Shown here: positions 2,481 to 15,684 of the stretch, piece by piece
Layout of the letters: every line of letters starts with the position of its first letter
Numbering within the stretch: position 1 is the first letter of the stretch
Source: a virus
IMG/VR virus record: IMGVR_UViG_3300008462_000404
Span: 1 to 39,003 of that record
Direction: 5' to 3' (one strand)
Length of the DNA stretch: 39,003 bases
The notes under the pieces: generated by a model
What the model saw: the letters and a program-made list of their open reading frames with translations, nothing else
Database searches by the model: none
Told to the model about the DNA's origin: nothing
Translations under genes and position numbers: made by a program

Positions 2481-2740
2481 CCCGCCTTAATGGTTGCCGA
2501 GTGGACGCCAGTTGGACAATCCCCCGCCGCGCCTCGGCTAACCCATTGGCTGGGCTACCGTATTCCCCCACAGCCGCCCACCTTGACACGGTAGGGGGCA
2601 CTTAGGCGCACCTACCTATGGCACGCTTCTTGCCGGGGTAGGCTAGAATGCCTCATCGCAAACTATATATGGGCGCCCGCTATCGAGTGGGGCGCCTGTG
2701 GACGAATTAGCCTAAGCGATTGCGTTTGTTATCAAGCACT

Positions 2741-2749
2741 TGTGGATAA
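2741..2749 (-). promoter_or_regulatory. Perfect DnaA-box match
   Basis: TGTGGATAA here is the reverse complement of the DnaA consensus TTATCCACA. A weaker relative (TGTGGACGA) lies at 2697-2705. A single box can occur by chance, but it sits in the AT-rich part of a noncoding gap. Confidence 0.4.
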
Positions 2750-2807
2750 GGTTGTTCACAACCCCCAATTGCCGCATAAGATATATTCGCGAAAGAATTG
2801 CTGGCGC

Positions 2808-2821
2808 CACTACATGTAGTG
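2808..2821. repeat. 14-bp perfect palindrome
   Basis: CACTACATGTAGTG reads the same on both strands. Its position in the convergent gap suggests a binding site for a dimeric protein or part of a recombination or termination structure. It does not resemble the TCAGA-N3-TCTGA operators of the switch region. Confidence 0.6.
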
Positions 2822-2822
2822 C

Positions 2823-2865
2823 GCGCAACGGAAGAATAACCCATTGCGGTTGCGCCTTTATTCTT
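2823..2865. terminator. Two interleaved inverted repeats at convergent gene ends
   Basis: GCGCAAC (2823-2829) pairs with GTTGCGC (2849-2855), and AAGAATAA (2832-2839) pairs with TTATTCTT (2858-2865). The arms interleave, so in RNA they could form either of two hairpins or a pseudoknot. Read rightward, the first stem is followed by a T-rich stretch, as in an intrinsic terminator. The second overlaps the stop codon of the last leftward gene. Confidence 0.45.
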
Positions 2866-3145
2866 AGCGCGCGCGAGGTTTGGACGCAAGACGAGCTTGC
2901 GCGTTGCCTCGTTCAAAGCGCATCAGCATCAAGGCTTCGCGCTCCGCGTATTTCTTCGGTTGGCTCAGGATTTCCAGCCGGTTGGCGAATGTGCGCAGGA
3001 TCTCCGCAATGCGCCGCGCGTCGATCTGGTCGCGGATCTCGAAGCGCAGTTGCATCCCGGCATTGCCCACAATGGCGCGGTCCATGGGGGATAGGTGGTC
3101 GCCCGTCTCCACGATGCGCTGGACGGTGGCTGCGTGGTCGCTCAT
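2864..3145 (-). CDS. Small hypothetical protein, last gene of the left operon
   Basis: The 93-residue product is unrecognised. It is mostly charged and helical, with an N-terminal stretch rich in Asp, His and Val and a very basic C-terminus (ending in KPRAR) that could contact nucleic acid. There is no cysteine, signal or membrane segment. Its ATG (3145) overlaps the stop of the upstream mini-gene (ATGA), which continues the coupling chain of the leftward operon. Its stop lies inside an inverted repeat that may end the transcript. Confidence 0.6.
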   Translation of the reverse strand: MSDHAATVQRIVETGDHLSPMDRAIVGNAGMQLRFEIRDQIDARRIAEILRTFANRLEILSQPKKYAEREALMLMRFERGNAQARLASKPRAR

Positions 3146-3225
3146 TGCGCTATCTCCATTCGCAGGGTGCGCTCCGACTTGCCCAGCCTGGCGCCCGCCG
3201 CAGCGAGGGTGATGAGGTCACTCAC
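3142..3225 (-). CDS. 27-residue mini-gene resembling a helix-turn-helix fragment
   Basis: A GTG start at 3225 overlaps the upstream stop (GTGAGTGA) and its TGA overlaps the downstream ATG, so it fills the gap between two operon genes exactly. The product contains AAAGARLGKSERTLR, which resembles the recognition half of small excisionase or MerR-type HTH proteins, where ...LGVSERTLRR... is common. It stops well short of such families, so it is either a remnant or a very small regulator. It is too short for certainty; the coupling is the main support. Confidence 0.4.
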   Translation of the reverse strand: MSDLITLAAAGARLGKSERTLRMEIAQ

Positions 3226-3859
3226 CCGTCCCGCCCTCCATCGTCGCGGGCGGGGTGGGGAGGGTGAGGGCGCGGATGGCTGTCCAGATGTAAGTTGCTG
3301 TCTGGTATTGAGAGGCTGTGGGGAGGCTATCGTGTGTCTTGGGCAGCGCGCCGTCCGCTACCCCCGCCGCCGCCTCCCTCATCGCCTCCGCCCCCGCGCG
3401 CCACGCAGCCTGTCGGAGGGCGGTGACTTCGGCGGGGGTGAGGGCGGCGCCAACGATATCCGCCAGTTCATTGGCCAGCAGCCGGGTGTTCGGCGTCCAT
3501 GTGCATTCGTTCGCAATGCCTGCGACCTTTCGCAACGCCTCCTCCAGCACCCGGACCCGCGCGGCCAGGGCGTCGCGTTCCTGATTGCGCGTGAGCGTGG
3601 CGGCGTGCGCTGCCTCAATCGCCTGATCGCGCTCGTCTTCGATGGCGAGGCGCCTTCTGCACTCGACTATATAAAGGTCGCGCGCGGCATCGTATTTGCG
3701 TTCCAGCGCCGCCGCATCCTCGGGCAGCAGGCAGCCCAGGGAGCGGGCGGCGGCGAGGGCGTCACGAGACCCTTGAATCGGGTCTTTGGCTGTGGCGAAC
3801 TCCGCGCGGATCGCATACTCCACGTCCTCGGCGCTCGCCACCTTCGTGTCGTCGCTCAT
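3218..3859 (-). CDS. Hypothetical early protein with coiled coil
   Basis: The 213-residue product has no domain I can name firmly. Residues about 45-115 are rich in Glu, Arg, Ala and Leu with heptad-like spacing, typical of a coiled coil. An EALRKVAGIANEC-like stretch follows. This layout recalls the Ea-type early proteins that lambda-like phages carry in their left operons, but that is an analogy rather than a demonstrated match. The start overlaps the stop of the gene at 3856-4200 and its own stop overlaps the following GTG. It is probably cytoplasmic, as it has no signal or membrane segment. Confidence 0.65.
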   Translation of the reverse strand: MSDDTKVASAEDVEYAIRAEFATAKDPIQGSRDALAAARSLGCLLPEDAAALERKYDAARDLYIVECRRRLAIEDERDQAIEAAHAATLTRNQERDALAARVRVLEEALRKVAGIANECTWTPNTRLLANELADIVGAALTPAEVTALRQAAWRAGAEAMREAAAGVADGALPKTHDSLPTASQYQTATYIWTAIRALTLPTPPATMEGGTGE

Positions 3860-4200
3860 GCCTTCGCCCTCCTTCGGTGGTCATCCCTGCGCCGCTGCAG
3901 ACCAAGCTCGGTCATGACGCGATAGACCGCCGTGTTGCTGGTCCCCAGTTGCGCCACCAGCGCCCGTATCTCGATTACGCCCGCGTGCGCCGCCCGGATC
4001 ATCGCGATTTCCTCACCGTTGAACTGGCGCCGCAGATGTGTGCGCTTGGTGTTGCCCGCGCGCCTGGCATCGGCCAGCACGATGCACCAGTGGCACACCA
4101 GCCGGGCGTGCTGCGGTGTCGCCACCACGCCCCCGCCGCATCGGTCGCATTCCAGGATCGGCAGGCACATGACCCGCGCCGGGGATTGGTGGGTTTGCAT
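3856..4200 (-). CDS. Zinc-ribbon / helix-turn-helix protein
   Basis: The 114-residue protein has two CxxC pairs near its N-terminus, CDRC at about residues 18-21 and CHWC at about 36-39, as expected for a zinc ribbon. The C-terminal half contains EIRALVAQLGTSNTAVYRVMTEL, which has the spacing of a helix-turn-helix, and a basic tail. It is likely a small DNA-binding regulator of the early region. Its target cannot be read from the sequence. It lies three bases after the upstream gene and overlaps the next one (ATGA), within the leftward operon. Confidence 0.7.
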   Translation of the reverse strand: MQTHQSPARVMCLPILECDRCGGGVVATPQHARLVCHWCIVLADARRAGNTKRTHLRRQFNGEEIAMIRAAHAGVIEIRALVAQLGTSNTAVYRVMTELGLQRRRDDHRRRAKA

Positions 4201-4203
4201 GGC

Positions 4204-4458
4204 TCAGCCCTCCTCGACCAGTTGGGGGAATGCATCAGCCAGCGCTCTACGCACGCGCCCGACGACCATGGGGCCTATGTCGCTAGGCGTCTCTCGCGTG
4301 TGCCAGATGGTGAGTTGGCCGGGGTTTTCGCGGCTGGCGCCGAAGCCGACGCGGCCAGCCACACTCCCACCCAGCAACAAGACCACGTACCCAAATGGGC
4401 GTTCTGCAACGGGGCTGCGATTATCGATCCCCGCGACGCGGTAAAGGTTGTTTGCCAT
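4204..4458 (-). CDS. Small hypothetical protein next to the recombinase
   Basis: The 84-residue product is unrecognised. It opens with polar residues, then has a glycine- and valine-rich core (GYVVLLLGGSVAGRVGFG) that looks more like a beta-structured core than a membrane helix, and a charged C-terminal half. It follows the bet gene by three bases and precedes the zinc-ribbon gene by three, so it is expressed from the same leftward message. No function can be assigned beyond membership of the early operon. Confidence 0.6.
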   Translation of the reverse strand: MANNLYRVAGIDNRSPVAERPFGYVVLLLGGSVAGRVGFGASRENPGQLTIWHTRETPSDIGPMVVGRVRRALADAFPQLVEEG

Positions 4459-4461
4459 GGC

Positions 4462-5403
4462 TCAGCCCTCCATCCCCGGCTCGCGCTCGCCATCCGCGAA
4501 CGACGCCAGCCGCGCCGTGATGGCTTCCTCTGCGACAGTGACCACGGCGGGGTCTGCCAGCGCGATGGTGTCCAGATGTTCGCTCATGGCCGTCTGCCAC
4601 TGGCGCACGGCCATGGCGCTTTCCAACTTGGCGAGCGCGCGTTCGACGGCGCGGGGCCACGTCTCCTGCGCGACCATGGCCAGATCCCCGGACGGCGCCA
4701 GCACCGGCCAGCGCGCGGCCTCGGCGGGCTGCGTGAGGGTCTGGGCATAGGCGCGCAGGTCGCCAGCCGGGCGGGCGTCCTCGACCACGGTGGATTGGAC
4801 GGTGCGGGGTTCGGTCTTGCCCTCCATTTCCTCGGCAGTCGGCTCGCCGCCAGTCAATTCGGGGAACGCCATCCGCAGCGCCTGCGCCTCGGCGCACTTG
4901 GCGATCTGGCCGTAGGGGCGCTTGGCCCACATTTCGTTGGGCGCCTCGCTATCACGCCCGGCTGTCGCGTAATTCTCCGTCCAGTATTCTTTGGCGGTGA
5001 ACTCGGCGTCGCCTCGCTTGACCGTCACCCGGCACCATGCGGGAAATGTCACGGTGCGCGAGCGCTCGTTGCCGTCCCGGTCGGTGCCAGCGAAGGTCTT
5101 GGTCTGGTCGGGACCGAACTCCGGCTCGCTCTTGCCGTTGTAGACGCCAGAGCGCGCGGCCTGGATGCGGTAAAGCGCAATGCCGGGCATCACCACGTCG
5201 CGCATTTCGCCGCGCTCGCCCTTCGTCGCGCCCTTCACCCACATGGGCACGATGTGGACGGGCTTAAGCATAGGGTCGAGGCCGCGCGCCTGGCAGTAGC
5301 CGAGCGCCATGCGGACGCTCTCGGGCTTGGCGCCGGGGTAAAGGCTGTCGCGCATGATCTCGACCATGCGGTTGTCGTCGGGGACTTTGGTGATCGCGTT
5401 CAT
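4462..5403 (-). CDS. bet: Bet/RecT-family single-strand annealing recombinase
   Basis: The 313-residue protein promotes annealing of complementary single strands in phage recombination. The N-terminal two thirds carry the Bet/RecT pattern: a QARGLDPMLKPVHIVPM stretch (about residues 33-49), DVVMPGIALYRIQAARSG (about 68-85), EPEFGPD and the EMWAKRPYGQIAKCAEAQALR segment near residue 165. The C-terminal third is variable, as usual in the family, and probably recruits host SSB or other partners. I see no exonuclease partner in the operon, although lambda pairs Bet with one. Its start overlaps the preceding stop (ATGA at 5403). Placement in the leftward operon matches lambda. Confidence 0.92.
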   Translation of the reverse strand: MNAITKVPDDNRMVEIMRDSLYPGAKPESVRMALGYCQARGLDPMLKPVHIVPMWVKGATKGERGEMRDVVMPGIALYRIQAARSGVYNGKSEPEFGPDQTKTFAGTDRDGNERSRTVTFPAWCRVTVKRGDAEFTAKEYWTENYATAGRDSEAPNEMWAKRPYGQIAKCAEAQALRMAFPELTGGEPTAEEMEGKTEPRTVQSTVVEDARPAGDLRAYAQTLTQPAEAARWPVLAPSGDLAMVAQETWPRAVERALAKLESAMAVRQWQTAMSEHLDTIALADPAVVTVAEEAITARLASFADGEREPGMEG

Positions 5404-5882
5404 GCTGTGGTTCCTTTGATCGTTGTGATGCGGAGTTGCGGGCCGCCCCCGTTCGACAAGACCGCGCCCGGTACGCTGCCACCGGCACGCAGGGCGCGCT
5501 CGATGGCGGCCTTGTCCGGGGCTGTGCGCAGCATGGTGGGCGAAAGAAGGGCCTCGTCTGTGATGATGACCGACGCCTTGCCGTTGGCGACGCCGGCCTG
5601 GTGCGACGCGGAGCGGATCACGCCTGTCGTCTGATTGAGAACGTCAAGCAGCAGCGCCCGCGTGTCGCGGACCACCCCCTTGGCGACTTCCTCCGCGGCT
5701 TCGGCGGCGAGGATCACGGGGATGAGGGCCGCAGTCTTGTGGTGCAGGCCGCTAGCCAAGGTCACATCGACCGCGGCATCCCGCATACTGGCAGTGAAGT
5801 GGTCGGCAGGCCCCGGCCCGTAATTCAGCCGCTCGGCAAAATCGTTGATCTTCGCCAGCAGGGCAGCCTCTGACTTGCTCAT
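5400..5882 (-). CDS. Hypothetical protein upstream of Bet
   Basis: The product has 160 residues from ATG 5882. The frame stays open further upstream, but that part overlaps the neighbouring gene and lacks a coupled start, whereas ATG 5882 overlaps the previous stop (ATGA). The protein is helical and Ala/Val/Leu-rich in residues about 1-100, with a Gly/Pro-rich C-terminus. I recognise no motif. Its position directly before the annealing protein suggests an accessory role in recombination or DNA handling, which is only inference. Confidence 0.65.
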   Translation of the reverse strand: MSKSEAALLAKINDFAERLNYGPGPADHFTASMRDAAVDVTLASGLHHKTAALIPVILAAEAAEEVAKGVVRDTRALLLDVLNQTTGVIRSASHQAGVANGKASVIITDEALLSPTMLRTAPDKAAIERALRAGGSVPGAVLSNGGGPQLRITTIKGTTA

Positions 5883-6118
5883 GACCCAAGCCCGATCAGC
5901 GACAGTTGCCCCTCGGGCGGGTAATTCACGTCTGCCCCGAGCGCGACGAGCGCGGCCTTGAGCGCCTGCGCGTTGCCCCAGCATTCGTCCGCGTCGTCTG
6001 CGATCTGCTGGCGCCGGTTCAGGTTGCGCTCGGCTGCGTGCGACCGCAGCAGGTCGGTATGCCGGGTGGTGTAGCGCCCATGCATCGCGACCATGCGGCT
6101 GATGGCGTCGGGGGTCAT
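5879..6118 (-). CDS. Small hypothetical protein, helical
   Basis: The 79-residue product from ATG 6118 is unrecognised. It is rich in Arg, His, Asp and Ala in its first 50 residues (for example AAERNLNRRQQIADDAD), which suggests charged helices. It ends in a Gly/Pro/Leu-rich tail. Start and stop both overlap neighbouring genes by the ATGA pattern, which fixes the start better than the longer upstream extension. No membrane segment or metal-binding motif is visible. Confidence 0.6.
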   Translation of the reverse strand: MTPDAISRMVAMHGRYTTRHTDLLRSHAAERNLNRRQQIADDADECWGNAQALKAALVALGADVNYPPEGQLSLIGLGS

Positions 6119-6261
6119 GGCATCGTCACCATGAGCAGCCCGACGATCACCCCGGCCAGGCCAAGTGTCAGGGCCACGAACTGCGCCACGAATACGAGCG
6201 CGCGCCAGACCATGCTGCGGGGGGCAGGCGGCCATGGCTGGTAGATCCCGCGGTCACTCAT
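6115..6261 (-). CDS. Small membrane protein (one transmembrane helix)
   Basis: This 48-residue gene has ATG 6261 overlapping the pentapeptide gene stop and TGA overlapping the next ATG at 6118. The product has a short Pro-rich cytoplasmic start followed by one long hydrophobic helix (about residues 19-46, ending [12 protein letters not shown]). Small single-span proteins of early phage operons often act on host membrane proteins or in exclusion of other phages. Which of these applies here is unknown. The double overlap is the strongest evidence that it is real. Confidence 0.6.
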
Positions 6262-6902
6262 GGCGCAATCTCCGCCCATGCCTCAGCCATCGCGACCGCT
6301 GCCCGGTAAGCGCGCCCGTGCTGGTTGTCGCCATGCTTTGCCGCGACAGCAGCCACAAACTCCGCAGCCGGGCTGGGTCCGAAGCAACCGCGCTGCACGT
6401 AAAGGCCCTCAGTGGTCGCGAAGGCCAGCAGCGTGCCACGCTCGCTTCCGATATTGCTGACGGTGAGAATGCCACGCGCGGTAAGCGTGAGCGTTTTGCC
6501 GTTGGCGCCGGTCAGATTGGCGCCGGACAGATAGGCGCCGACCAGATAGGCGCCGACCAGATAGGCGCCGGACAGATCGGCGCCGGACAGATCGGCGCCA
6601 GCCAGATAGGCGCCGACCAGATAGGCGCCGGACAGATCGGCGCCAGCCAGATCGGCGCCAGCCAGATCGGCGCCGGACAGATCGGCGCCGGACAGATCGG
6701 CGCCAGCCAGATAGGCGCCGGACAGATAGGCGCCGGACAGATAGGCGCCGGACAGATCGGCGCGGGCTTTGACCGCGATCTGCACCGCCGCCTTGATGCG
6801 TCCGAACAGCGGGATCGCGGCGTCAACCTCGGCGCGGAAAAGCACCTCGGTGCTATCCCATCGCGAGACAATCTCGACGGGCACTGTGGTGGGGGCGTCC
6901 AT
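6258..6902 (-). CDS. Pentapeptide-repeat protein with conserved C-terminal domain
   Basis: The 214-residue protein has three parts. Residues 1-47 form a leader. Residues 48-135 are an unbroken run of pentapeptides of the form A(D/Y/N)L-x-G, which fold as a right-handed square beta-helix. Residues 136-214 form a domain with [21 protein letters not shown] and a final helix, a module I have seen attached to phage pentapeptide proteins. Some pentapeptide proteins mimic DNA and protect or inhibit gyrase (the Qnr/MfpA type), but the family is broad and that function is not shown here. The start overlaps the preceding stop (ATGA at 6902), so the longer upstream frame was not used. Confidence 0.88.
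6498..6752 (-). repeat. 15-bp tandem repeats encoding 17 pentapeptides
   Basis: The units are 15 bp long and nearly identical, most containing GGCGCC followed by GACAGAT, GCCAGAT or GACCAGAT-type sequence. They encode [15 protein letters not shown] and VGAYL variants in sequence. Identity between neighbouring units suggests recent expansion by slippage or unequal recombination. Copy number is likely to vary between relatives. The repeat also keeps an opposite frame open, which is not evidence for a second gene. Confidence 0.9.
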
Positions 6903-7225
6903 CAAACGCGCTCCCCGAACAGCGTCGCGGGGCCTGTGAACTCGTCCTTGCGGCGAAGCTCCCGCACATGGGCCAGCGCCTCGGCCTTCCACGGCAGCAG
7001 GGCGGCCTCGACGGCGGCCAGCACCGTCTCGCAGCGGGCGGCCTCTTCCTCGGTGCTGTCGGCTGCGACAACATCCCAGGTTTCAGCCAGCCAGATGCAC
7101 AGATCGTAGAGGGCGCTGGACGCAGCAGCGTGGCGCGCGTCAATGGCGTCCTGCGCGTCGGCGGCGCGGGCTGCGGCGAGGCCCGGGGGAACCCAGGCGT
7201 AACCGGCTGTGGCGGTGTTCGGCAT
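6902..7225 (-). CDS. Hypothetical protein, first gene of the left operon
   Basis: The product has 107 residues from ATG 7225; an alternative ATG at 7234 would add three. I prefer 7225 because AAGGGA sits about 8 bases upstream of it, while the same motif touches the other ATG. The protein is alanine-rich and helical with a central Asp/Glu patch, and has no known motif. It lies directly downstream of the predicted operator-controlled leftward promoter, the position of the antiterminator N in lambda. It shows no arginine-rich N-terminus like N, so that role is not supported. Confidence 0.65.
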
Positions 7226-7251
7226 CGGCGTCATCCCTTGTTGGTGGGATG

Positions 7252-7280
7252 ATATTGTCAGACGGTCTGACGTCCGTCAA
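7252..7280 (-). promoter_or_regulatory. Leftward early promoter (PL-like) with operator in its spacer
   Basis: On the minus strand, -35 TTGACG (7275-7280) and -10 CAATAT (7252-7257) are separated by exactly 17 bp. The spacer contains operator GTCAGA-CGG-TCTGAC (7257-7271), so a bound repressor would block polymerase directly. Transcription would start near 7245, about 20 bases before the first leftward ATG. Confidence 0.75.
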
Positions 7281-7293
7281 TCAGAAAATCTGA
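7257..7293. promoter_or_regulatory. Left operator pair (OL-like)
   Basis: There are two dyads of the form TCAGA-N3-TCTGA: GTCAGACGGTCTGAC (7257-7271) and TCAGAAAATCTGA (7281-7293). Their centres are 23 bp apart, about two helical turns. The same dyad recurs beside the repressor gene (7803-7859), which identifies it as the likely repressor/Cro site. Confidence 0.8.
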
Positions 7294-7417
7294 CATTCAT
7301 TTTGCAACCGCGCGCGTAACATCATTGACTGAAGTAAAATTTCCGTCACAGTTGGGGGGGGCACAACCCAGGGATGCAGTCAAGTGAAAGACTTTGTGTG
7401 GCCTGCTTCGACCGTGC

Positions 7418-7765
7418 CTAAGCCGCAGATATCAACGCCGGTAAAACGGAAGCCGGTGAAAAATCCGGGCGATCAGGGTCAATCCCTCTCTCTCTGGCTA
7501 GGAGCCTGATCGCTAATGTGAGAGGCAGTTTTCCCGCGTCGCCCATATAGATGTAGTCCATCGTCAGGCCAGGTACGGCTTCGCACATGGCGGCGACACC
7601 AGCGGGCGGCGGGAAGTTCGGCTTCTTTGGGTTGACCGCCTCCCAATTGGCAAAAGCCGTCCGCTCCACGCCAATCCGCGCAGCGAACGCAGTTGCGGTA
7701 GCGCCATACTCATCTCGCACTGCGCGAACTCGGCGCGCGACATCATCTCGGTTGAGCTTCGCCAT
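7418..7765 (-). CDS. HTH repressor (CI-like, no protease domain)
   Basis: The product has 115 residues from ATG 7765 (ATG 7771 is also possible). It contains an XRE-type helix-turn-helix at about residues 22-42 (TATAFAARIGVERTAFANWE) and a second conserved stretch, PGLTMDYIYMGD, common in small phage repressors. No S24 self-cleavage domain is present, so induction is not by the classical RecA/LexA-like cleavage. The frame is open up to 7834, but that extension would run through two operators. The shorter start leaves a normal control region. It is transcribed leftward, back to back with the Cro-like gene, exactly as lambda cI and cro. It probably holds lysogeny through the TCAGA-N3-TCTGA sites. 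Confidence 0.82.
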   Translation of the reverse strand: MAKLNRDDVARRVRAVRDEYGATATAFAARIGVERTAFANWEAVNPKKPNFPPPAGVAAMCEAVPGLTMDYIYMGDAGKLPLTLAIRLLARERGIDPDRPDFSPASVLPALISAA

Positions 7766-7802
7766 GGCCATAAGTCTGCCAAGGTCGGAATAGCCTGTCT
7801 TT

Positions 7803-7859
7803 TCAGAAGGGCTGACGCGTGTGTCAGAAAACACGCTTGCGATCCTTCAGATATTCTGA
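7803..7859. promoter_or_regulatory. Right operator triplet (OR-like)
   Basis: Three sites lie in the repressor/Cro interval: TCAGAAGGGCTGA (7803-7815, one mismatch), a half-site TCAGA with poor second arm (7824-7836) and TCAGATATTCTGA (7847-7859). Centres are 21 and 23 bp apart. This matches the three-operator plan of lambda OR. The imperfect middle and left sites would bind more weakly than the right one. Confidence 0.75.
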
Positions 7860-7865
7860 CATTCT
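7837..7865 (+). promoter_or_regulatory. Rightward early promoter (PR-like); leaderless Cro message
   Basis: The -35 TTGCGA (7837-7842) and weak -10 CATTCT (7860-7865) are 17 bp apart, with an operator in the same register as in the leftward promoter (four bases, then the 13-bp dyad, then -10). A start about seven bases further falls on the Cro ATG at 7873, and no ribosome-binding site precedes it. The message may be leaderless. Confidence 0.55.
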
Positions 7866-7872
7866 GCTGGGC

Positions 7873-8088
7873 ATGGACGCACCTGCAATCATTTCCGCCC
7901 TTGGAGGCCCGCCTGTGTTGGCGCCCCTGCTCGGCGTCTCCCGCACCGCCGTCTGCAACTGGCGGCACAGCGGCATCCCATCTCGGCACTGGCCAAAGAT
8001 TGCCCGCGCTGCGGCCAAGGCCAAGCCGACGAGGGCCATTACCATCGACGTGCTGGAGCGCGCATCGCTGGCCGAGGCCACGCACTGA
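7873..8088 (+). CDS. Cro-like HTH regulator
   Basis: The 71-residue protein starts at ATG 7873 (the frame is open from 7819, but that part lies across the operators). Residues about 4-40 form a helix-turn-helix of the Cro/YdaS kind: PAIISALGGPPVLAPLLGVSR followed by TAVCNWRHSGIPSRHW. The TAVxNWxxxGIPxRHW pattern is typical of small phage Cro proteins. It should bind the TCAGA-N3-TCTGA operators and favour lytic growth by shutting off the repressor. It is the first gene of the long rightward early operon. Its stop overlaps the next ATG. Confidence 0.85.
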   Translation: MDAPAIISALGGPPVLAPLLGVSRTAVCNWRHSGIPSRHWPKIARAAAKAKPTRAITIDVLERASLAEATH

Positions 8089-8561
8089 TGGCCCGGCCCG
8101 GTCGCCCGGTCGGCTACGTGTGCAGCCCCGAGACGCGGGCGCGCATCAGTGCGTCGCGGCGCCGCCACGACCGCGACGCGGTGCTGAACGCCTGGGCCGC
8201 GGGCGCGGCCTATCCGGACATCATCCAGCAGACCGGAGTCAGCAAGAGCAGCATCGGCTCCATCATCGAGGCGGCCCGCGCCGCTGGTGATCCGCGCGCC
8301 CATGTGCGCCCCCGTAACTCCTTCCGCGCAGCCATGCCGGACCACGTTCGGCGCCATTACCTCAAGCTGCGTGCGTGCGGCCTCTCGCGCTTGGTCGCGG
8401 TGGCCGAGTGCGACCAGCTTTTCCAGACCGCGCGCCCCGCCGCCTCCGAGGCCGGCGCGTGTGGCGGGGAGGGCCGGGCATCCCTCCCGTCCTCCCCGCC
8501 TGTCTCCGCCCCCTGTGTTGCTGCCGTCCATGCAGGAACCATGCAGGAGCAACCCCGATGA
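8088..8561 (+). CDS. HTH protein with NUMOD3-like N-terminus
   Basis: This is a 157-residue protein. Residues about 13-26 (CSPETRARISASRR) resemble the NUMOD3 DNA-binding motif found in homing-type nucleases and regulators. Residues about 30-65 (VLNAWAAGAAYPDIIQQTG then VSKSSIGSIIEAAR) form a probable helix-turn-helix. A second helical region follows, and the last 40 residues are low-complexity. No nuclease active site is visible, so I read it as a DNA-binding regulator of the early operon. Start and stop both overlap neighbours (8088 and 8558). Confidence 0.72.
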   Translation: MARPGRPVGYVCSPETRARISASRRRHDRDAVLNAWAAGAAYPDIIQQTGVSKSSIGSIIEAARAAGDPRAHVRPRNSFRAAMPDHVRRHYLKLRACGLSRLVAVAECDQLFQTARPAASEAGACGGEGRASLPSSPPVSAPCVAAVHAGTMQEQPR

Positions 8562-9002: not shown

Positions 9003-9999
9003 CGAGATTGCTGCGATGAGCAGCGATGCCGCCGGGGGCTTCCCGGATCGTGCCTGTGTGATTGGCGTCCCTCCCTCAAACTTCGCGGGCGCTTCCAACG
9101 AGGCGCCCGCGCTTTTTGATGGCGAGGATCTGCGCACCGCCGTGCTGCGCCTGCGCGCGGCGGGCATGGCCTACAGCCTGATTGCCTCGGCCTTGGGTGT
9201 TAGCAAAGGGCAGGTGGCGGGCATCATCTACCGCACACAGAAACCCGACGCGATGGCAGACTATCGCGCCCGCAACCCAGGCAAGGGGCGAGACAAGAAG
9301 CCCCGCGCGCCACGCCCCGGCTTGGCCCGTCCATACGTGCCGCGTGGCGGCGCTGCTCCGGTCGATGTTGGGCAAAAATTTGGGTGGTTGACCGTGACCG
9401 GCGACGCCGGACACGACGCGTATAATTACCGGCTGCTTGCGACCGTTTGTGGCTGCGGCGCGGCGCGCGTTGTTCGCCGCGCTGTCTTGTCCGCGGGCAG
9501 GGCCACATCGTGCGGGTGCAAGGCAAGCCTGACGAGGGTGGCGGCGCGGCGCGGCCTCACGTCGAGCGCAAGCGTTGAGCCTGATTTCGACGCGTGGGAT
9601 ATTCCGCACGCCGCCCCGCCCCCTGCTGTGGCCAAGCCCTACGTCGAGCGCGCAACACGCGCCGCCCGCTCCCTGCGCGGTGCGGCTGAGATCGAGGTTG
9701 CGCGCGCACGTGCAGCACAGGCGCCCAAGGCAGCACCCCGTGCGCGTGGCCAGACCACCGTCATCCGCAAGCCGGTGCCGGGGCAGGTGTTTGCCGCAGT
9801 CGAACAGGCCCCGGTGGAGCGCATCACCCTGGACGCGCCCGTCCTCGGCGCCTGCTGCTGGCCCATGTGGCAGCACGGCATCCGCCCCTCGTATGGCGAG
9901 CATCGGTTCTGCGATGCGCCCCGATACGCGGCCCATCACCGCTACTGCGAGGGCCATGCGGAGCGCGCGTTTGTGCGTGGGGAAGGGGTGACGGCATGA
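8995..9999 (+). CDS. GcrA-like regulator split by a cysteine-rich domain
   Basis: The product has 334 residues from ATG 8995; a GTG at 8932 would add 21. An N-terminal HTH-like part (LRAAGMAYSLIASALGVSKGQVAGIIYR) and a C-terminal CCWPMW...HRFCDAP...YCEGHA signature match the two ends of GcrA, the alphaproteobacterial factor that binds sigma-70 and methylated promoters. Between them lies a domain starting GQKFGWLTVTGDAG with CGCG and SCGC, the pattern of a small zinc-binding domain common in phage proteins. A long Ala/Arg/Pro linker follows. GcrA itself is shorter and lacks this insert. A role in redirecting host transcription is inferred. Two DNA methylases in the same genome make a methylation-linked role attractive. 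Confidence 0.75.
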   Translation: MTDEIAAMSSDAAGGFPDRACVIGVPPSNFAGASNEAPALFDGEDLRTAVLRLRAAGMAYSLIASALGVSKGQVAGIIYRTQKPDAMADYRARNPGKGRDKKPRAPRPGLARPYVPRGGAAPVDVGQKFGWLTVTGDAGHDAYNYRLLATVCGCGAARVVRRAVLSAGRATSCGCKASLTRVAARRGLTSSASVEPDFDAWDIPHAAPPPAVAKPYVERATRAARSLRGAAEIEVARARAAQAPKAAPRARGQTTVIRKPVPGQVFAAVEQAPVERITLDAPVLGACCWPMWQHGIRPSYGEHRFCDAPRYAAHHRYCEGHAERAFVRGEGVTA

Positions 10000-10157
10000 C
10001 GCCCGCTGACATCGCCCACCTTCGCCAAATCTGCGCCACGGCAGACAGCAACGCCACAGTCACGCTCATGCCGGTGCGCGTACTGCGCGACCTACTGGCG
10101 GCATGGGAAGCACAGAACAAGGCGCAGCCCGATGGCATGGCAGGGCGCGGCGCATGA
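9996..10157 (+). CDS. Small hypothetical protein
   Basis: The 53-residue product starts at an ATG (9996) that overlaps the stop of the GcrA-like gene and ends in a TGA that overlaps the ATG at 10154. It begins MTPADIAHLRQICATAD, a start I associate with small phage early proteins of unknown function. It forms one or two amphipathic helices and has a polar C-terminus. There is no membrane segment. Function is unknown. Confidence 0.6.
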   Translation: MTPADIAHLRQICATADSNATVTLMPVRVLRDLLAAWEAQNKAQPDGMAGRGA

Positions 10158-10228
10158 CCTACGCGGCGCTGTTCCATCTCGCGCTGATCGCGTGCGGCAT
10201 GGCCTGGATCGTGGGGGCGCTGCGGTGA
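10154..10228 (+). CDS. 24-residue membrane peptide
   Basis: The ATG at 10154 overlaps the previous stop and the TGA at 10226-10228 overlaps the GTG start of the VRR nuclease, so the mini-gene fits exactly between them. The peptide is almost one hydrophobic helix (about residues 3-21, ALFHLALIACGMAWIVGAL). It could be a membrane peptide, or its translation may simply carry ribosomes to the GTG start of the next gene. Its size keeps confidence low. Confidence 0.42.
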   Translation: MTYAALFHLALIACGMAWIVGALR

Positions 10229-10635
10229 GCGACTTTGCCGACAGCTTCGACTACGGCGGCCAGGTCCGCCCGCCGCGCGCGCCACGCAAGCCCCCCGGGA
10301 AGGTCGCCAGCGAACGCGCCGTGCAAATGGCCATCATCGCCCGCCTCCACGTCCATGGCGTGTTCACGTGCCACATTCCCAACGCCGGCAAGCGCGGCGC
10401 TGCTACCGGCGCGCGGCTTAAGCAGGAGGGAATGCGCCCCGGCTTCCCGGATCTCTACTGCGCCGCCAATGGTCGCCACGTGCTGCTTGAGGTCAAGGCC
10501 GCGGGTGGGCGCCTGTCGCCGAACCAAGTTGAGTGCCATGCGGATCTGCGCCGTCGCGGCGTCTGTGTCGCGGTGGTCTACAGCCAAGACGAGGCGGTTG
10601 AAGCCTGCGTGGCGGCGGGGGTCATCAAGGCATGA
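10225..10635 (+). CDS. VRR-NUC domain nuclease
   Basis: The product has 136 residues from GTG 10225, coupled to the previous stop (GTGA). Residues about 30-120 show the VRR-NUC fold of the PD-(D/E)xK superfamily: ERAVQ with Glu 30, HIPNAGKRG at about 50-58, GMRPGFPDL with catalytic Asp 76, LLEVKAAGGRLSPNQ with Glu 89 and Lys 91, then a final strand-helix. Stand-alone phage VRR nucleases act on branched or flap DNA, such as Holliday-type structures, during replication or before packaging. It sits among the replication genes, which supports that role. The N-terminal 30 residues are a basic, Pro-rich tail. Confidence 0.88.
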   Translation: MSDFADSFDYGGQVRPPRAPRKPPGKVASERAVQMAIIARLHVHGVFTCHIPNAGKRGAATGARLKQEGMRPGFPDLYCAANGRHVLLEVKAAGGRLSPNQVECHADLRRRGVCVAVVYSQDEAVEACVAAGVIKA

Positions 10636-10841
10636 CCATCGCCACCATCATCCCCGTGCCGCCCGAGGTCCAGAACCGCGCTTGGCAGCAGGCGTATGCC
10701 CTCGTCACCGACCACCTTGACCAACTCGACCCCGTGCAGAGGGCCGTCGCCGCGGGCATCGCGTGGCGCAAGGCGGGCACCCTGACATGGGACCAGTGCC
10801 AGGACGCGGCGAGGCTGTATCAGCGGGTGGTGGGGGCATGA
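10632..10841 (+). CDS. Small hypothetical protein
   Basis: The 69-residue product has its start overlapping the nuclease stop (ATGA at 10632) and its stop overlapping the methylase ATG at 10838. It forms two or three helices with the pattern VQRAVAAGIAWRKAGTLTWDQCQDAARLYQ. There is no metal site, signal peptide or membrane span. It is unrecognised; position suggests a replication or DNA-processing accessory, but nothing in the sequence shows it. Confidence 0.6.
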   Translation: MTIATIIPVPPEVQNRAWQQAYALVTDHLDQLDPVQRAVAAGIAWRKAGTLTWDQCQDAARLYQRVVGA

Positions 10842-12010
10842 GGGTCGGTTCCGTCTGCTCGGGCATCGGCGCCCCTGAGTGCGCTTGGCAGAGCCTTGGC
10901 TGGCACTCCGTCTTCGCCTCGGAGACCGCCGCATTCCCGCGCGCCGTGTTCGGCCATCGCTTCCCCAGCGTGCCCATCCATGGCGACTTCACCACCATTG
11001 AGGCTGACACCTATGGGCCAATTGACCTTCTTGTCGGCGGAACCCCCTGCCAATCGTTCAGCGTCGCCGGCCTCCGAGGCGGAATGGCTGACGAGCGCGG
11101 CAACCTGGCCCTTGAATTTCTCCGCTTGGCTGATCGCCTCAACCCCCGCTGGGTGGTTTGGGAGAATGTCCCCGGCGTCCTGTCCAGCAACAGCGGAAGG
11201 GATTTTGGCTCCTTCCTCGGGGGCCTGGGCGAACTCGGGTATGGGTTCGCCTATCGAGTGCTTGACGCTCAGCACTTCGGAGTGGCCCAGCGACGGCGCC
11301 GCGTGTTCGTTGTCGGATATCTTGGAGACTGGCGCCGTGCCGCCGCGGTACTTTTTGAGCGCGCGAGCCTGTGCGGGCATCCTGCGCCGCGCCGAGAAGC
11401 GGGGGAAGACCTTGCCCCCACAATTAGCGCGCGCCCTTCAGGCGGCGGCGGCCTCGGCACCGACTTCGATCTTGATGGAGGTTTGCAGCTCGCCCGCTGC
11501 GTGACGACGCGCGAGGGGCAGCGCATGGACCCCACGCTTGAGACCTACGTCACGGGCACGCTCTACGGCAACGGCAAAGCGGCGGGCAGCGCGACACAGC
11601 AGGATGCCGAGGCTGGCCTGCTTGTCTCCCACACCCTGCGCGGCGACGGCTTCGACGCCAGCGAGGATGGCACGGGGCGCGGGACGCCGCTGGTTCCGAT
11701 AACCTTCGGCATCGACGCGGAACACAATGGCCGCGCCGAGCTCATGGGCACCCTCCAAGCACGCGCTCATGCCGCTTGCTCCACGGCAGCCATCACTGGT
11801 CCATCTGTTCGCCGCCTCATCCCCATGGAATGCGAGCGCCTTCAGGGCTTCCCAGATGGCTGGACCGCCGTTCCCTATCGCGGAAAGCCCGCCGCTGACG
11901 GCCCCCGCTACAAGGCAATTGGCAACAGCATGGCAGTGCCCGTGCTGCGCTGGATGGGTGAGCGCATCGCGCGGGTGGCCGCTCTCGCTGCCGTGGAGCA
12001 AGCGGCATGA
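10838..12010 (+). CDS. C5 cytosine DNA methyltransferase (Dcm type)
   Basis: This 390-residue enzyme methylates cytosine at carbon 5 using S-adenosylmethionine. Ordered motifs are visible: motif I SVCSGIGAPECAW (residues 5-17), motif IV GGTPCQSFS with the nucleophile Cys 71, motif VI ENV (109-111), motif VIII QRRRRVF (151-157), a target-recognition region at about 170-335 and motif X with YKAIGNSM near residue 365. LIPMECERLQGFPDGWT before motif X is typical. No partner endonuclease is nearby, so it is an orphan methylase probably protecting phage DNA. The start is ATG 10838, overlapping the previous stop. Its target sequence cannot be predicted by eye. Confidence 0.95.
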   Translation: MRVGSVCSGIGAPECAWQSLGWHSVFASETAAFPRAVFGHRFPSVPIHGDFTTIEADTYGPIDLLVGGTPCQSFSVAGLRGGMADERGNLALEFLRLADRLNPRWVVWENVPGVLSSNSGRDFGSFLGGLGELGYGFAYRVLDAQHFGVAQRRRRVFVVGYLGDWRRAAAVLFERASLCGHPAPRREAGEDLAPTISARPSGGGGLGTDFDLDGGLQLARCVTTREGQRMDPTLETYVTGTLYGNGKAAGSATQQDAEAGLLVSHTLRGDGFDASEDGTGRGTPLVPITFGIDAEHNGRAELMGTLQARAHAACSTAAITGPSVRRLIPMECERLQGFPDGWTAVPYRGKPAADGPRYKAIGNSMAVPVLRWMGERIARVAALAAVEQAA

Positions 12011-14064
12011 GCGCCCTAGCCGACGCCGCGGCCATCCTGGCATCGCGCGGCATCCCGGTCTTTCCTTGCCTGGCATCCAAAGCCCCCGCGACCGAGCGCG
12101 GCCTATACGCGGCCAGCACCGACCCCGAGCAGGTGCGGCGCATGTTTGCCTCGCCCGCTGCGGTCCTGATCGGGATGCCGACAGGCGCCACAACCGGCCT
12201 CTATGCCGTGGACGTGGACATCAAGCACGGCGCCAAGGGTGACGAGTGGTTGCAGGCCAATAGCCACCGCCTGCCGCAGACGCGCACCCACAAGACGCAA
12301 AGCGGTGGCCTCCATCTCCTGTTCACCGTCCCGGCTGGCGCCAAGATCCGCAACAGCCAAAGCAAGATAGCCCCGGGCGTTGACGTGCGCGGTGACGGTG
12401 GGTTCGTTATCGTTCCCGGATCGCCTGAATACGCCGTGGCCGATGACAGCGATCCGGCAGAGATGCCCGCTTGGCTGCTCGAGCTGCTCAAGCCCGCCCC
12501 CGCCCCCACGCCGCAGCCCATGGCGCCCCGCCCCCGCGCAGATGACAGCCACGGCACGCCCTACGGAATGCGCGCCCTCGATGCCGAATGCGCCGCAGTC
12601 TGCAACGCCCCGTTCGGCCAACAGGAGGGCACGCTCAACGAGGCGGGGCTGAAGCTGGGCGCCCTGTCCGCCGGCGGCGAGCTGGACCCGTCCTATGCCC
12701 GGTCCTCCCTGATCCGCGCAGCCCTCGCCATGCCAAGCCAAGGCGGGCGCGAGCCGTGGACCCCGCAGGACGTGCAGAAAAAGGCCGAGCGCGCATTCGA
12801 AGACGGAATGCGCAAGCCCCGCCAGGCGCCGCCGCGCGAGGTGCGCCACACCATCCGCGTGGAGATCGTCCCGCCCGAGCCGCCGCCATACGCCGAGCCG
12901 CCCGATTATTGGCAGGCAGAAGTGGACCCGGAGCCTGCGGAACAGCGGAACGCTGCGGAACATTCCGCGCAATCCGCCGAGGCGCCGGCCCGCCCAGTGC
13001 CGCACCTCACCACGCCCGAGCCGTTCCCGACCCTGAGCCTGGACGATCTCGAAGCCCTACAGCCCCCGGAATGGCTGATCGACAAGCTGATCCCGGTTGA
13101 TGCCTTCGCCCTCCTCGTTGGTCCGTATGCCAGCCTCAAGTCGTTCCTCGCCCTCGACCTGTCTCTGTGCGTCGCCTACGGCATCCCCTGGCAGGGGCGT
13201 CCGGTCAAGCAAGGCCCGGTCCTCTACATCGCCGGCGAAGGCGCTGCAGGCATGGCAAGCCGCGTCAAGGCGTGGCGGCGGGTCCATGGCGTCGAGGATC
13301 AGGAAGCCCCGTTCCGCCTGCTGCGCGCCCGGCTAAACATCCTGGACCCCGGACACATTGGGCGCCTGGTCGCCACAGCCGCACACGACTTCAAGGGCGA
13401 GCCGGTGCGCCTTGCGGTCAATGACACCCTCGCCCGGTCGATGGTCGGCGCCGATGAGAACTCCGCGCAGGACATGGGCCGCGCCGTAGCCGCCACGGAT
13501 GAGATCCGCGACGAGCTCAAATGCACGACGCTGACGGTGCATCACATGGGCAAGGACAAGGACCGCGGCGCCCGTGGGTCCATAGCCCTCCCCGCCGCCG
13601 CTGACACCACGCTGGTGGTCGAGCGCGAGGGTTCCCGGCTGACCATCACTGTGGAAAAGCAAAAGGACGCCGAGGAAGGCGAGCCAATCGTTCTGGAAGC
13701 CAAGAAGTTCGGCACCGACGGCGACCCGAACCCGACTGAGGACGCCCCGACATCCCTGGTCCTGTGCAGCAGCGACGAGGGCGCACATCCCCTGAAGGCC
13801 ACCGAGCGGCGCCTATCGGGCGACCAGCAGCAGGCGCTCCGGGTGCTGCATGACGCCATCGCAGAGAACGGCGCCCCAGACTTCCCAGGCGTCCCGCGCG
13901 GCCTGCCGAGCATCCCCGAGGATTGGTGGCGGGACAGGTTCCACGAGCGCTGCAAGCCCGGGGCGGACAAAGACACCAAGCGCAAAGCCTACCGCCGGGC
14001 CGCCGACGCACTGATGCAAGCGGGCCTTGTCGCCTGCAATCGCGGGCGGGTCTGGGCGGTATGA
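12007..14064 (+). CDS. Replication protein: primase-polymerase fused to RepA-like helicase
   Basis: This is a 685-residue fusion. The N-terminal 150 residues match the bifunctional primase-polymerase (Prim-Pol) domain, with acidic VDVDIK (Asp 69, Asp 71), SGGLHLLF (His 103) and VDVRGDGGFVIVPGS (about 125-139). A Pro-rich linker (about 280-340) leads to a RecA-fold ATPase of the RepA/AAA_25 type: Walker A GPYASLKS near 372-379, a VNDTLARS segment near 472 and HHMGKDKDRGARGS near 513-526. The Walker A has the unusual loop PYASL. The C-terminal 100 residues may bind DNA. It should open the origin and prime synthesis. No DNA polymerase is encoded, so host polymerase is presumably used. Iteron-like repeats follow directly. 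Confidence 0.9.
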   Translation: MSALADAAAILASRGIPVFPCLASKAPATERGLYAASTDPEQVRRMFASPAAVLIGMPTGATTGLYAVDVDIKHGAKGDEWLQANSHRLPQTRTHKTQSGGLHLLFTVPAGAKIRNSQSKIAPGVDVRGDGGFVIVPGSPEYAVADDSDPAEMPAWLLELLKPAPAPTPQPMAPRPRADDSHGTPYGMRALDAECAAVCNAPFGQQEGTLNEAGLKLGALSAGGELDPSYARSSLIRAALAMPSQGGREPWTPQDVQKKAERAFEDGMRKPRQAPPREVRHTIRVEIVPPEPPPYAEPPDYWQAEVDPEPAEQRNAAEHSAQSAEAPARPVPHLTTPEPFPTLSLDDLEALQPPEWLIDKLIPVDAFALLVGPYASLKSFLALDLSLCVAYGIPWQGRPVKQGPVLYIAGEGAAGMASRVKAWRRVHGVEDQEAPFRLLRARLNILDPGHIGRLVATAAHDFKGEPVRLAVNDTLARSMVGADENSAQDMGRAVAATDEIRDELKCTTLTVHHMGKDKDRGARGSIALPAAADTTLVVEREGSRLTITVEKQKDAEEGEPIVLEAKKFGTDGDPNPTEDAPTSLVLCSSDEGAHPLKATERRLSGDQQQALRVLHDAIAENGAPDFPGVPRGLPSIPEDWWRDRFHERCKPGADKDTKRKAYRRAADALMQAGLVACNRGRVWAV

Positions 14065-14216
14065 GTGGGGTGGGACATTCCGGGACAGAACGGGACATGT
14101 CCGGGACATTGTCCGGGACATCCGGTGGGACATCGCGGGGGATAGCCCGGCAGGGCTACCCCGAAATGTCCCGCGTCCGCAAGTCTTTTGTTTTGAGATG
14201 GATTATCGGGAAATGA
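14061..14216 (+). CDS. Short frame spanning the iteron repeats
   Basis: A 51-codon frame starts at an ATG overlapping the helicase stop and ends in a TGA overlapping an ATG at 14213, so the coupling pattern of the operon runs through it. The product is low-complexity (Ser, Gly, Thr, Arg) because it translates the GGGACA repeats, and ends in a basic VRKSFVLRWIIGK. It may simply be a frame kept open to carry ribosomes through the repeat array. The DNA repeats are probably the functional part. Confidence 0.35.
   Translation: MSGVGHSGTERDMSGTLSGTSGGTSRGIARQGYPEMSRVRKSFVLRWIIGK
14072..14132. repeat. Six helically phased GGGACA repeats (iteron-like), candidate origin
   Basis: GGGACA occurs at 14072, 14082, 14092, 14103, 14115 and 14127, with spacings of 10, 10, 11, 12 and 12 bp, so all copies face roughly the same side of the helix. 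An inverted copy, TGTCCC, lies at 14167-14172. Inside the array GGACA-T-TGTCC forms a small dyad. A locally AT-richer stretch follows at about 14180-14210. Placement right after the primase-helicase gene is where plasmid-like origins often lie. Confidence 0.65.
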
Positions 14217-14527
14217 GACAGCCCCGCCCCGCCTGGCAGCGCACCGCCACCCCATCGGCCAAGGTCGCACGTGCCCTGCAACTCGCGACCGACGCATACA
14301 CCGCAACCCGGCTGATCGAGCGCGGCGCCGTCGCGACCCCCATGGGCGGCAAGACAACCCTCCGCGTCCCGGGCGAGCAGATGGCCGTGACACTGCCAAC
14401 CGAAGCCGTGGAACTGGCCAAGGCGCAGGCGAGGGAAGCGGCGGCGATGTTTGGAGGGCGAGGGAATAACCAACCCGCGCACTCGGATAATCACGCGTGC
14501 GCGGTCAACGGAGGTGGCGACACATGA
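14213..14527 (+). CDS. Hypothetical protein after the iterons
   Basis: The product has 104 residues from ATG 14213; ATG 14198 in the same frame is possible. It is basic at the N-terminus (MRQPRPAWQR) and Ala/Thr-rich in the middle, with a central helix AVELAKAQAREAAAMF, and ends in a polar tail rich in His, Asn and Gly. No motif is recognised. ATG 14213 is preferred because it overlaps the preceding stop. Its own stop overlaps the next ATG (14524). It could assist replication by position, but that is a guess. Confidence 0.58.
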   Translation: MRQPRPAWQRTATPSAKVARALQLATDAYTATRLIERGAVATPMGGKTTLRVPGEQMAVTLPTEAVELAKAQAREAAAMFGGRGNNQPAHSDNHACAVNGGGDT

Positions 14528-14751
14528 CGCATCGATACACCACCAAGGCGTGGCAGGACGAGGACGGCGCCGGATGGGGTTCGCGCCCGACCGAGACCGT
14601 CTTTGAGGATGCCTGTGATCCGGTCAACATCGGCATCCTCGACCAGTACGGGACGCCCCTGTTCCGCGTCGCTGAGCGCGGGCGGCTCGGGTTCGATCTC
14701 ACGCCACCTCGCGCGCGCGTGCGCGTCAAAGCCCGGAGCATCCGAGCATGA
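14524..14751 (+). CDS. Small hypothetical protein
   Basis: The 75-residue product from ATG 14524 is unrecognised. It is rich in aromatic and acidic residues in its first half (TTKAWQDEDGAGWG) and basic at the end (RARVRVKARSIRA). The start and stop overlap the neighbours by the ATGA pattern. There is no cysteine and no membrane segment. It is one of a run of five small proteins between the replication genes and the terminator. Confidence 0.58.
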   Translation: MTHRYTTKAWQDEDGAGWGSRPTETVFEDACDPVNIGILDQYGTPLFRVAERGRLGFDLTPPRARVRVKARSIRA

Positions 14752-14969
14752 ACAACCCCGTCGATCTGGCCGCGGCCCGTGCCGCGCGCAAGCCCATGCA
14801 GGACGGCGGATGGCTCGGCTGCCCGACCTGCGGCGGGGACACTTGGGGCGCGCTGGCGACACCTCACGGCCCGTCTGTTTTGGCTCTGGTCTGCCACGAC
14901 TGCACCACGAGGCTGAATTTGAACGCGGGCCGGGTGATCGGCGCGGTCAACCGGGAGGATGGGCGCTGA
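14748..14969 (+). CDS. Small zinc-ribbon protein
   Basis: The 73-residue protein has two metal-binding pairs, CPTC at about residues 25-28 and CHDC at about 50-53. This is the spacing of a small zinc ribbon. The N-terminus (VDLAAARAARK) is helical and basic. Such proteins usually bind nucleic acid or act as adaptors for a larger complex. No partner is evident. Its stop overlaps the next ATG (TGATG at 14967-14971). Confidence 0.65.
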   Translation: MNNPVDLAAARAARKPMQDGGWLGCPTCGGDTWGALATPHGPSVLALVCHDCTTRLNLNAGRVIGAVNREDGR

Positions 14970-15175
14970 TGGAACCCAAACAACCGTGGTGCGCCAAGCT
15001 CCAATACCCGGGCCTCCTGCCGTTCCTGTTCGGCACGGTCTGGGTGCGGGATGGCCGGCAAGAGGAAGCCACGACCGCGATCCGCGAACTGTGGGCCACG
15101 CGGTTTCCCCACCCCATGCCGCCCATCGTCGCGATGATGCCGGGCGCGCTCGTGTTCCAAGGACAGGAGGAATGA
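14969..15175 (+). CDS. Small hypothetical protein
   Basis: The product has 68 residues from ATG 14969, overlapping the zinc-ribbon stop. It opens with MEPKQPWCAKLQYPG and has an aromatic, Pro-rich N-terminal half followed by a helix (EEATTAIRELWATRF) and a hydrophobic C-terminal end. It is unrecognised. A strong ribosome-binding site (AGGAGG at 15165-15170) lies near its 3' end and serves the next gene. Confidence 0.57.
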   Translation: MEPKQPWCAKLQYPGLLPFLFGTVWVRDGRQEEATTAIRELWATRFPHPMPPIVAMMPGALVFQGQEE

Positions 15176-15684
15176 TGGCCCGCGCCCCCACCCGACGTGA
15201 CGCTGCGGACCGCGGCTCCACAGGCCGCGCCCAGCAGGCCCGCCCGCGCGGCATGGTCACGGTCGCCATTCCCGTGGACGACGCGACACGCCTGCAACGG
15301 GCCGCAGTGCTGCGGTATGACGACGCCCACCTGATCGACCGGATGCATCAGCGGGCGCAGTTGACCGACAGGCAGCATGAGAACGCCTGTGCGTTCCTCG
15401 CCTTGTGGACAGCCTCGCACGTCACGCCCCGGGTTACTGCGCGGTTCTCCGACGCCCCGCCAGGTCGCGAGCTTGGCAGCGATCCCGACGCGGCCACGCC
15501 TGCGGATCTGATGCGCCACACCCTGCGCAGGCTCGGGCAGCACCGTGCGGCGCTGTTGGTCGGACTGTGCGTGGGCGAGCATCCCGGCGTGCAATGGCTG
15601 GCCACGCTACATGCCGCGCTGGATATGCTGGACGGGCTACAGGCGCGGTGGGATGGGATGCGGTGGAAAGCGGAGGAAGCTTGA
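15172..15684 (+). CDS. Hypothetical protein, last gene of the right early operon
   Basis: The product has 170 residues from ATG 15172; ATG 15175 directly follows and is nearly as well placed behind AGGAGG. The first 30 residues are basic and Arg/Ala-rich. The rest is helical, with HLIDRMHQRAQLTDRQHENA and RHTLRRLGQHRAALLVGLCVGEHP. The position before the terminator and terminase, and the last-gene-of-early-operon context, are where late regulators often lie in lambda-like phages. There is no motif to support an antiterminator role. Confidence 0.65.
   Translation: MMARAPTRRDAADRGSTGRAQQARPRGMVTVAIPVDDATRLQRAAVLRYDDAHLIDRMHQRAQLTDRQHENACAFLALWTASHVTPRVTARFSDAPPGRELGSDPDAATPADLMRHTLRRLGQHRAALLVGLCVGEHPGVQWLATLHAALDMLDGLQARWDGMRWKAEEA

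Follow-up and report, generated by a model that had tools for sequence, protein, structure and literature searches.

The XerC and XerD proteins recombine dif sites, and integrative mobile elements exploiting Xer (IMEX) use partial mimics of dif. Here we analyse a 39,003-bp stretch of viral DNA, the entire IMG/VR record IMGVR_UViG_3300008462_000404 (hereafter the window), which is classed as linear, carries a lambda-like immunity switch, and has a predicted phage attachment site (attP) resembling a partial dif in the gap between two convergent gene sets.

Among described systems, the TLC-phi phage of Vibrio cholerae has an attP whose XerC arm and centre are homologous to dif and whose XerD arm is divergent (PMC5357621); it integrates as double-stranded DNA through host XerC/XerD (PMC5357621; PMC4246890) and, as cited in PMC9765430, encodes its own Xer activator, XafT. 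Large elements also reside at dif with a conserved XerC half, such as the gonococcal genomic island and EludIMEX-1, and in the gonococcal island the dif centre is homologous as well and the XerD half divergent (PMC5357621). Users of dif described in the literature include filamentous phages, microviruses, tailless phages and genomic islands, and in one Vibrio study the tailed prophages carried diverse integrases. A tailed phage using dif was not found in the open literature searched, a coverage that leaves out subscription papers and preprints.

We conclude, with a probability of about 0.88, that the window is a complete temperate tailed phage of Acetobacteraceae that has a lambda-like switch and no recombinase and integrates through host XerC/XerD at a partial dif. 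An earlier note on this DNA had raised host-Xer integration at the convergent gap as one explanation for the missing integrase; that proposal is now supported by a 15-bp dif match in the gap, by an architecture shared among integrase-less phages, and by a relative, the AD2 prophage, integrated in dif.

A partial dif between phased palindromes

The gap and the gene that adjoins it contain the following features.

2481–2863, no strand: convergent gap with the predicted attP
2619–2633, + strand: sigma54-promoter-like box TGGCACGCTTCTTGC (TGGCAY-N5-TTGC), also in G421, L177 and G435
2662–2672, no strand: palindrome 1, degenerate in the window (ACTATATATGG) and CTANATNTAG in G421, L177 and G435; 118 bp before the attP core
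2769–2779, + strand: predicted XerC-binding arm of attP, TTGCCGCATAA, matching the XerC half of Acetobacteraceae dif
2780–2785, + strand: predicted attP central (crossover) region GATATA, the same as in the dif of many Acetobacteraceae
2786–2796, + strand: degenerate XerD side of attP, TTCGCGAAAGA, where dif has TTATGGAAA..
2809–2819, no strand: palindrome 2, ACTACATGTAG, 29 bp after the core start and 147 bp from palindrome 1
2830–2846, + strand: conserved box GGAAGAATAACCCATTG, 21 bp after the start of palindrome 2, identical (Y at one position) in G421 and L177
2864–3145, − strand: conserved 93-aa protein, last gene of the left operon, adjoining attP; candidate Xer accessory/activation or directionality factor

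The 15-bp sequence CGCATAAGATATATT (2773–2787) occurs once in the genome, inside the gap, and is an exact match to the XerC half and centre of a dif that many Acetobacteraceae have in single copy (CGCATAAGATATATTATGG), with divergence thereafter; the IMEX trait of an attP that mimics dif is thus present. Across 300 shuffled genomes the best dif match was usually 8 and never above 13, against 15 in the window. When Acetobacteraceae were searched for dif, a site was recovered in 183 of 397 genomes, typically once per genome; CGCATAAGATATATTATGGAAA and close variants dominate among the matches listed, which include none to the reversed control pattern. An E. coli-type dif score that weights the XerD arm gave nothing above chance, because the XerD side is degenerate, and attP was found instead through cross-phage geometry and an empty-site comparison. 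Read at the 118/29-bp coordinates, the window has TTGCCGCATAA-GATATA-TTCGCGAAAGA (2769–2796).

This geometry emerged from comparing the element in the window with that in viral genomes G421 and G435 and in viral contig L177, three integrase-less relatives in all of which it recurs at the 118/29-bp spacing. The two palindromes lie 147 bp apart in three of these four phages and 146 bp apart in the other, with merely 32–46% ungapped identity in the sequence between them, and all four (4/4) have a TATA-like box 30 bp ahead of palindrome 2 and another box 21 bp past it. No further copies of CTANATNTAG occur elsewhere in these phage genomes. The relatives' attP cores are GGTATA (G421, L177), TGTATA (G435) and, in the further genome G397, GATGTA, all of them variants of the dif centre seen in genomes of the family. 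Matches of the pattern GGAAGAATAACCCAYTG in three other viral contigs (L175, L176, L178) were rejected as chance.

The sigma54-like box precedes palindrome 1 by 43, 44, 43 and 54 bp in the window, G421, L177 and G435, respectively, so that it stands about one helical turn further off in G435, and it is not seen in AD2; a transcript from it would run into attP. A perfect DnaA-box-like sequence, TTGTGGATAA, lies within the gap at 2740–2749 and is not conserved in G421.

Conservation of the sigma54-like and TATA-like boxes might suggest that the dif match is a coincidence, or a promoter with TATATT as its −10 box, in a gap that is merely a regulatory or small-RNA region. We regard this as extremely improbable: the match far exceeds that of shuffled genomes, and the independently determined AD2 breakpoints fall exactly at the predicted core. 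We also rejected an RNA gene, as the gap has no Rfam match, its consensus fold is weak, and on neither strand does its folding surpass that of shuffled sequences (z −0.85 and −1.52).

A relative integrated in the dif of a Roseomonas plasmid

The Roseomonas mucosa plasmid p1-AD2 (NZ_CP025188.1, 415,646 bp) encodes a weak homolog of the 93-aa protein, as the last left-operon gene of a 31,349-bp prophage, AD2, that wraps the record origin. The prophage is arranged as a leftward operon, a YdaS regulator, a Prim-Pol (56% identical to that of the window over the N-terminal residues 4–277), virion proteins and an endolysin, followed by host genes. Its boundaries were set by comparison with five R. 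mucosa plasmids that have the same host genes and no prophage. Alignment of empty and occupied sites yielded the bacterial site attB, GGAGTTTCGATAATATTTCTTATGTCAAAT, and the junctions attL, AGTTTCGATAATATTTC-AAATGAAAAGA, and attR, AGATGCGATAATATTTC-TTATGTCAAAT, with 12 bp, CGATAATATTTC, common to all three; this crossover segment corresponds to the XerC arm together with the 6-bp Xer core. Although placed from the empty sites, independently of the palindromes, the core has exactly the spacing of the viral genomes, with palindrome 1 lying 118 bp before it and palindrome 2 29 bp after it.

Both sequence and context identify the empty site as that replicon's dif. Within 40 kb, the FtsK-orienting motif GGGNAGGG is distributed 15/3 to its left and 0/16 to its right (Fisher p 4e-7); on the Roseomonas plasmid dif was marked by the GGGNAGGG polarity alone and not by GC skew, whose cumulative extremes lie elsewhere. 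A copy integrated exactly in dif, another IMEX trait, is thereby present in a relative of the window phage, and the fixed-point integration within 2481–2863 to which the earlier note had looked finds its match here, since AD2 is integrated at exactly the equivalent point, in a Roseomonas dif. Both the window and AD2 have the combination known from TLC-phi, with the XerC arm and full centre dif-like and the XerD arm divergent. The only tyrosine recombinase on the AD2 record is encoded at 298.6 kb, outside the prophage and at least 115 kb away, and no serine recombinase (PF00239) was matched on that record. An IS21 element is inserted inside the prophage (L191:3488–5715), for which no terminase or portal is annotated, and AD2 is probably defective.

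Homologs of the 93-aa gene stand beside the same element in G421, L177, G435, AD2, G397, G317 and G632. In G397 and G317 these adjoin att-like sites with the 29-bp spacing, and G632 has one contig with an intact dif-like XerD arm (TTATCAGAAAT) and another with the phage arm, all three genomes lacking empty-site controls; G397 and G632 are probably integrated, without an integrase. The two related G632 elements (L212 and L213) come from a single alphaproteobacterial genome, where one of them adjoins a host XerD arm and the other has the attP form; here the 93-aa homolog occupies the opposite side, and 93 bp separate palindrome 1 from the core.

Several points weigh against this interpretation. 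In G317 the core (CAAGGA) is unusual and another part of the genome contains an intact dif, leaving its site unproven, and G421 and L177 have a weak XerC arm. AD2 is a diverged relative (its 93-aa homolog is 25% identical) and a decayed one, given the IS21 insertion and the missing terminase and portal, and no lysogen of the exact window phage was found. The host family, presumably Acetobacteraceae, is judged from the dif match, the terminase and the prophage relatives, and a requirement for XerC/XerD is likewise presumed.

A closed genome without a recombinase gene

The last open reading frame (38083–39003) exits the right end of the record, and the first (1–183) enters the left end in the same frame. 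Joined, they form one phosphoesterase that aligns without a break to those of four other phages, with no gap at the joint relative to G421 (YGV/ETGTLSDP, the slash marking the joint, against YGVDTGTLAD). Because the ends meet in-frame inside this gene, the record is a complete, circularly closed phage map, and the absence of an integrase is not due to truncation. Its main features outside the gap are these.

1–39003, no strand: complete closed phage genome, ends meeting in the phosphoesterase gene (38083–39003 continued at 1–183)
1494–2177, + strand: endolysin (phrog_181, E 6e-70), closing the rightward late region on the left side of the attP gap
4462–5403, − strand: RecT-type single-strand annealing protein (PF03837, E 5e-30; phrog_2449, E 2e-88), in the leftward operon
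5400–5984, − strand: Gam/Gp157-like protein (phrog_253, E 4e-7; PF05565, E 2e-4, below the cut-off)
7258–7293, no strand: left operators, two TCAGANNNTCTGA sites, exact copies at 7258 and 7281
7418–7834, − strand: CI-like repressor, helix-turn-helix only, no protease domain (phrog_2328, E 1e-5)
7803–7859, no strand: right operators, 7803–7815 with 1 mismatch and 7847–7859 exact
7819–8088, + strand: Cro/YdaS-like regulator (phrog_8008, E 5e-11; PF15943 and PF14549 weak)
12007–14064, + strand: Prim-Pol/AAA_25 helicase replication protein (PF09250, E 1e-31; PF13481, E 2e-35)
14072–14121, + strand: iteron-like GGGACAT repeats, probable phage origin
16101–17603, + strand: terminase large subunit (phrog_38, E 7e-106)
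17909–20251, + strand: portal protein (phrog_12082, E 9e-168)
23846–24811, + strand: major head protein (phrog_9953, E 9e-85)

The repressor and Cro genes diverge and share operators, as in lambda. Four TCAGANNNTCTGA operators surround the repressor against 0.41 expected, a count reached by 0 of 100 shuffles. The repressor, the Cro-like gene and the left-operon "Bet" (the RecT-type protein) reported in the earlier note were all recovered; of its five operators, four hold (three exact, one with 1 mismatch) and the fifth, near 7824, is weak.

The other half of the lambda-like arrangement, an encoded integrase adjoining attP, is not present: PHROG and Pfam scans of the ~50 window open reading frames gave no family match to an integrase, transposase, ParA/ParB or plasmid Rep initiator, and six-frame searches of the window matched neither the tyrosine (PF00589) nor the serine (PF00239) recombinase family. 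These profile searches confirm the earlier note's reading that no integrase, transposase or partition gene is encoded, and the IMEX trait of having no site-specific recombinase of one's own applies to the window, G421, G435 and the AD2 prophage.

The phage might still integrate at dif with a recombinase of its own that escapes recognition, for example a divergent left-operon protein, in place of XerC/XerD. Several left-operon proteins are without a family match, and integrases occur in some of the tailless Vibrio prophages located at dif (PMC11630473). This is very improbable, however, given the empty six-frame searches, an AD2 crossover segment that equals XerC arm plus Xer core, and the fact that the sole unknown protein common to all members, at 93 aa, reaches roughly half the size of a tyrosine recombinase catalytic domain.

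The primase-polymerase/helicase and the iteron-like repeats named in the earlier note were both found, but phages too commonly replicate with Prim-Pol/AAA proteins and iterons. The note's suggestion of a phage-plasmid gains no support, with no Par genes and no plasmid record of the phage. A circular plasmid prophage that relies on these elements and never integrates would account for the closed map, the Prim-Pol/helicase and the iteron-like repeats. But headful-packaged virion DNA also yields circular maps, iterons and Prim-Pol may serve lytic replication, and the scans held no ParA/ParB or plasmid Rep initiator. A search for plasmid relatives with the capsid protein returned only weak Stenotrophomonas matches and one large Burkholderia replicon. 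A dif-matched attP would moreover lack a purpose in a plasmid, and a relative bearing the same element is integrated. We therefore consider a plasmid lifestyle very unlikely.

The viral relatives bear on whether an integrase has simply been lost. The portal and capsid genes (the capsid is 73% identical) make G421, of 39.8 kb, the nearest; it is closed (end overlap of 327 bp at 94%) and has no integrase. G435 (36.6 kb) has RecT, the Gam/Gp157-like protein and late genes in common with the window, and its ends meet within a single gene, where the joint shows a slight frame slip; it, too, has no integrase. The integrase family was matched in G427, G428 and G431, and weakly in G422; in G422 and G427 the gene sits at the matching spot, at the left-operon end beside the convergent gap, and neither has a long dif match. 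That relatives with similar capsid genes do carry an integrase would fit a phage that lost its own and became effectively virulent, the gap being a relic. Yet the attP element, its flanking gene and the exact spacings persist despite strong divergence in no fewer than three closed genomes that lack an integrase (window, G421, G435), as they would not in a relic, and AD2, and probably G397 and G632, are integrated without one. Such a loss, which the earlier note had mentioned as the dull explanation, is contradicted by this conservation, and we judge it highly unlikely.

A terminase scan of 85k genomes gave a single close match, in Paeniroseomonas (74%). We rejected this Paeniroseomonas aquatica locus (L042) as the same phage: its terminase is 74% identical and no matching portal accompanies it, pointing to mosaicism. 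Nothing was learnt from G517, the remnant of a chromosomal prophage that has a related capsid. Elsewhere in the window, the gene at 6258–6992 contains a 15-bp repeat 17 times, encodes a pentapeptide-repeat-like product and has homologs in G421 and G435; a PAPS-reductase-like protein (29695–30423) lies amid virion genes and has a G421 counterpart 75% identical. Of two DNA methyltransferases (180–911 and 10763–12010), the second has 83% identity to Caulobacter phage DMCA across ~490 bp.

Proposed mechanism and relation to known systems

We propose that attP, in the convergent gap where lambdoid phages keep it, offers XerC/XerD a partial dif consisting of the XerC arm and centre with a degenerate XerD side. 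Recombination with the dif of a replicon, which we infer to be catalysed by XerC/XerD, would generate attL, in which the host XerC arm and core run into phage DNA, and attR, in which the phage XerC arm and core are followed by the intact host XerD arm, and by the same reasoning this particular phage would be capable of lysogeny. The two palindromes, 118 bp before the core and 29 bp after it, are probably bound by a dimeric protein, possibly the 93-aa product, and with it may build a synaptic complex and set activity or direction. That protein is a candidate Xer activator or accessory factor; it belongs to no PHROG or Pfam family, and its AlphaFold model is all-helical and of low confidence (pTM 0.28). 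We lean, if narrowly, towards a broader scenario in which a lambda-like lineage swapped its integrase for a compound attP (a dif mimic and two phased palindromes) plus a small protein that, with no need for FtsK, turns host XerC/XerD on and off and makes double-stranded DNA lysogeny at the replication terminus reversible, with the attP centre evolving to each host's dif variant.

An integrase normally marks temperate tailed phages and its absence is read as a sign of a virulent or plasmid-like lifestyle, such that a lineage of this kind would be missed or misclassified. Exploitation of host Xer would extend from filamentous phages, microviruses and islands to lambda-like tailed phages; the fixed-spacing palindromes and the 93-aa protein would constitute a testable new Xer accessory system, and the attP core would allow host-range prediction.

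Compared with known systems, the window is most readily set beside TLC-phi, with which it has in common a dif-like XerC arm and centre and a divergent XerD arm, XafT being a possible parallel to the 93-aa protein. TLC-phi, however, is a small filamentous satellite phage, whereas the window is a 39-kb tailed double-stranded DNA phage with a lambda-like switch, whose attP has flanking palindromes at fixed spacing and whose 93-aa protein falls in no known family. The gonococcal island and EludIMEX-1 differ in being genomic islands, the window being a phage with capsid, terminase and lysis genes. Phages Mx8, Mx9 and ppBjS10J-1 have related major head proteins (38–43% identity) but are likely to have other early regions. 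The lambda-like G422 and G427 resemble the window in their divergent repressor/Cro switch and in a left operon with recombination genes and an attachment locus at its end; at that locus they encode a tyrosine integrase, where the window clade has a dif mimic and the 93-aa gene.

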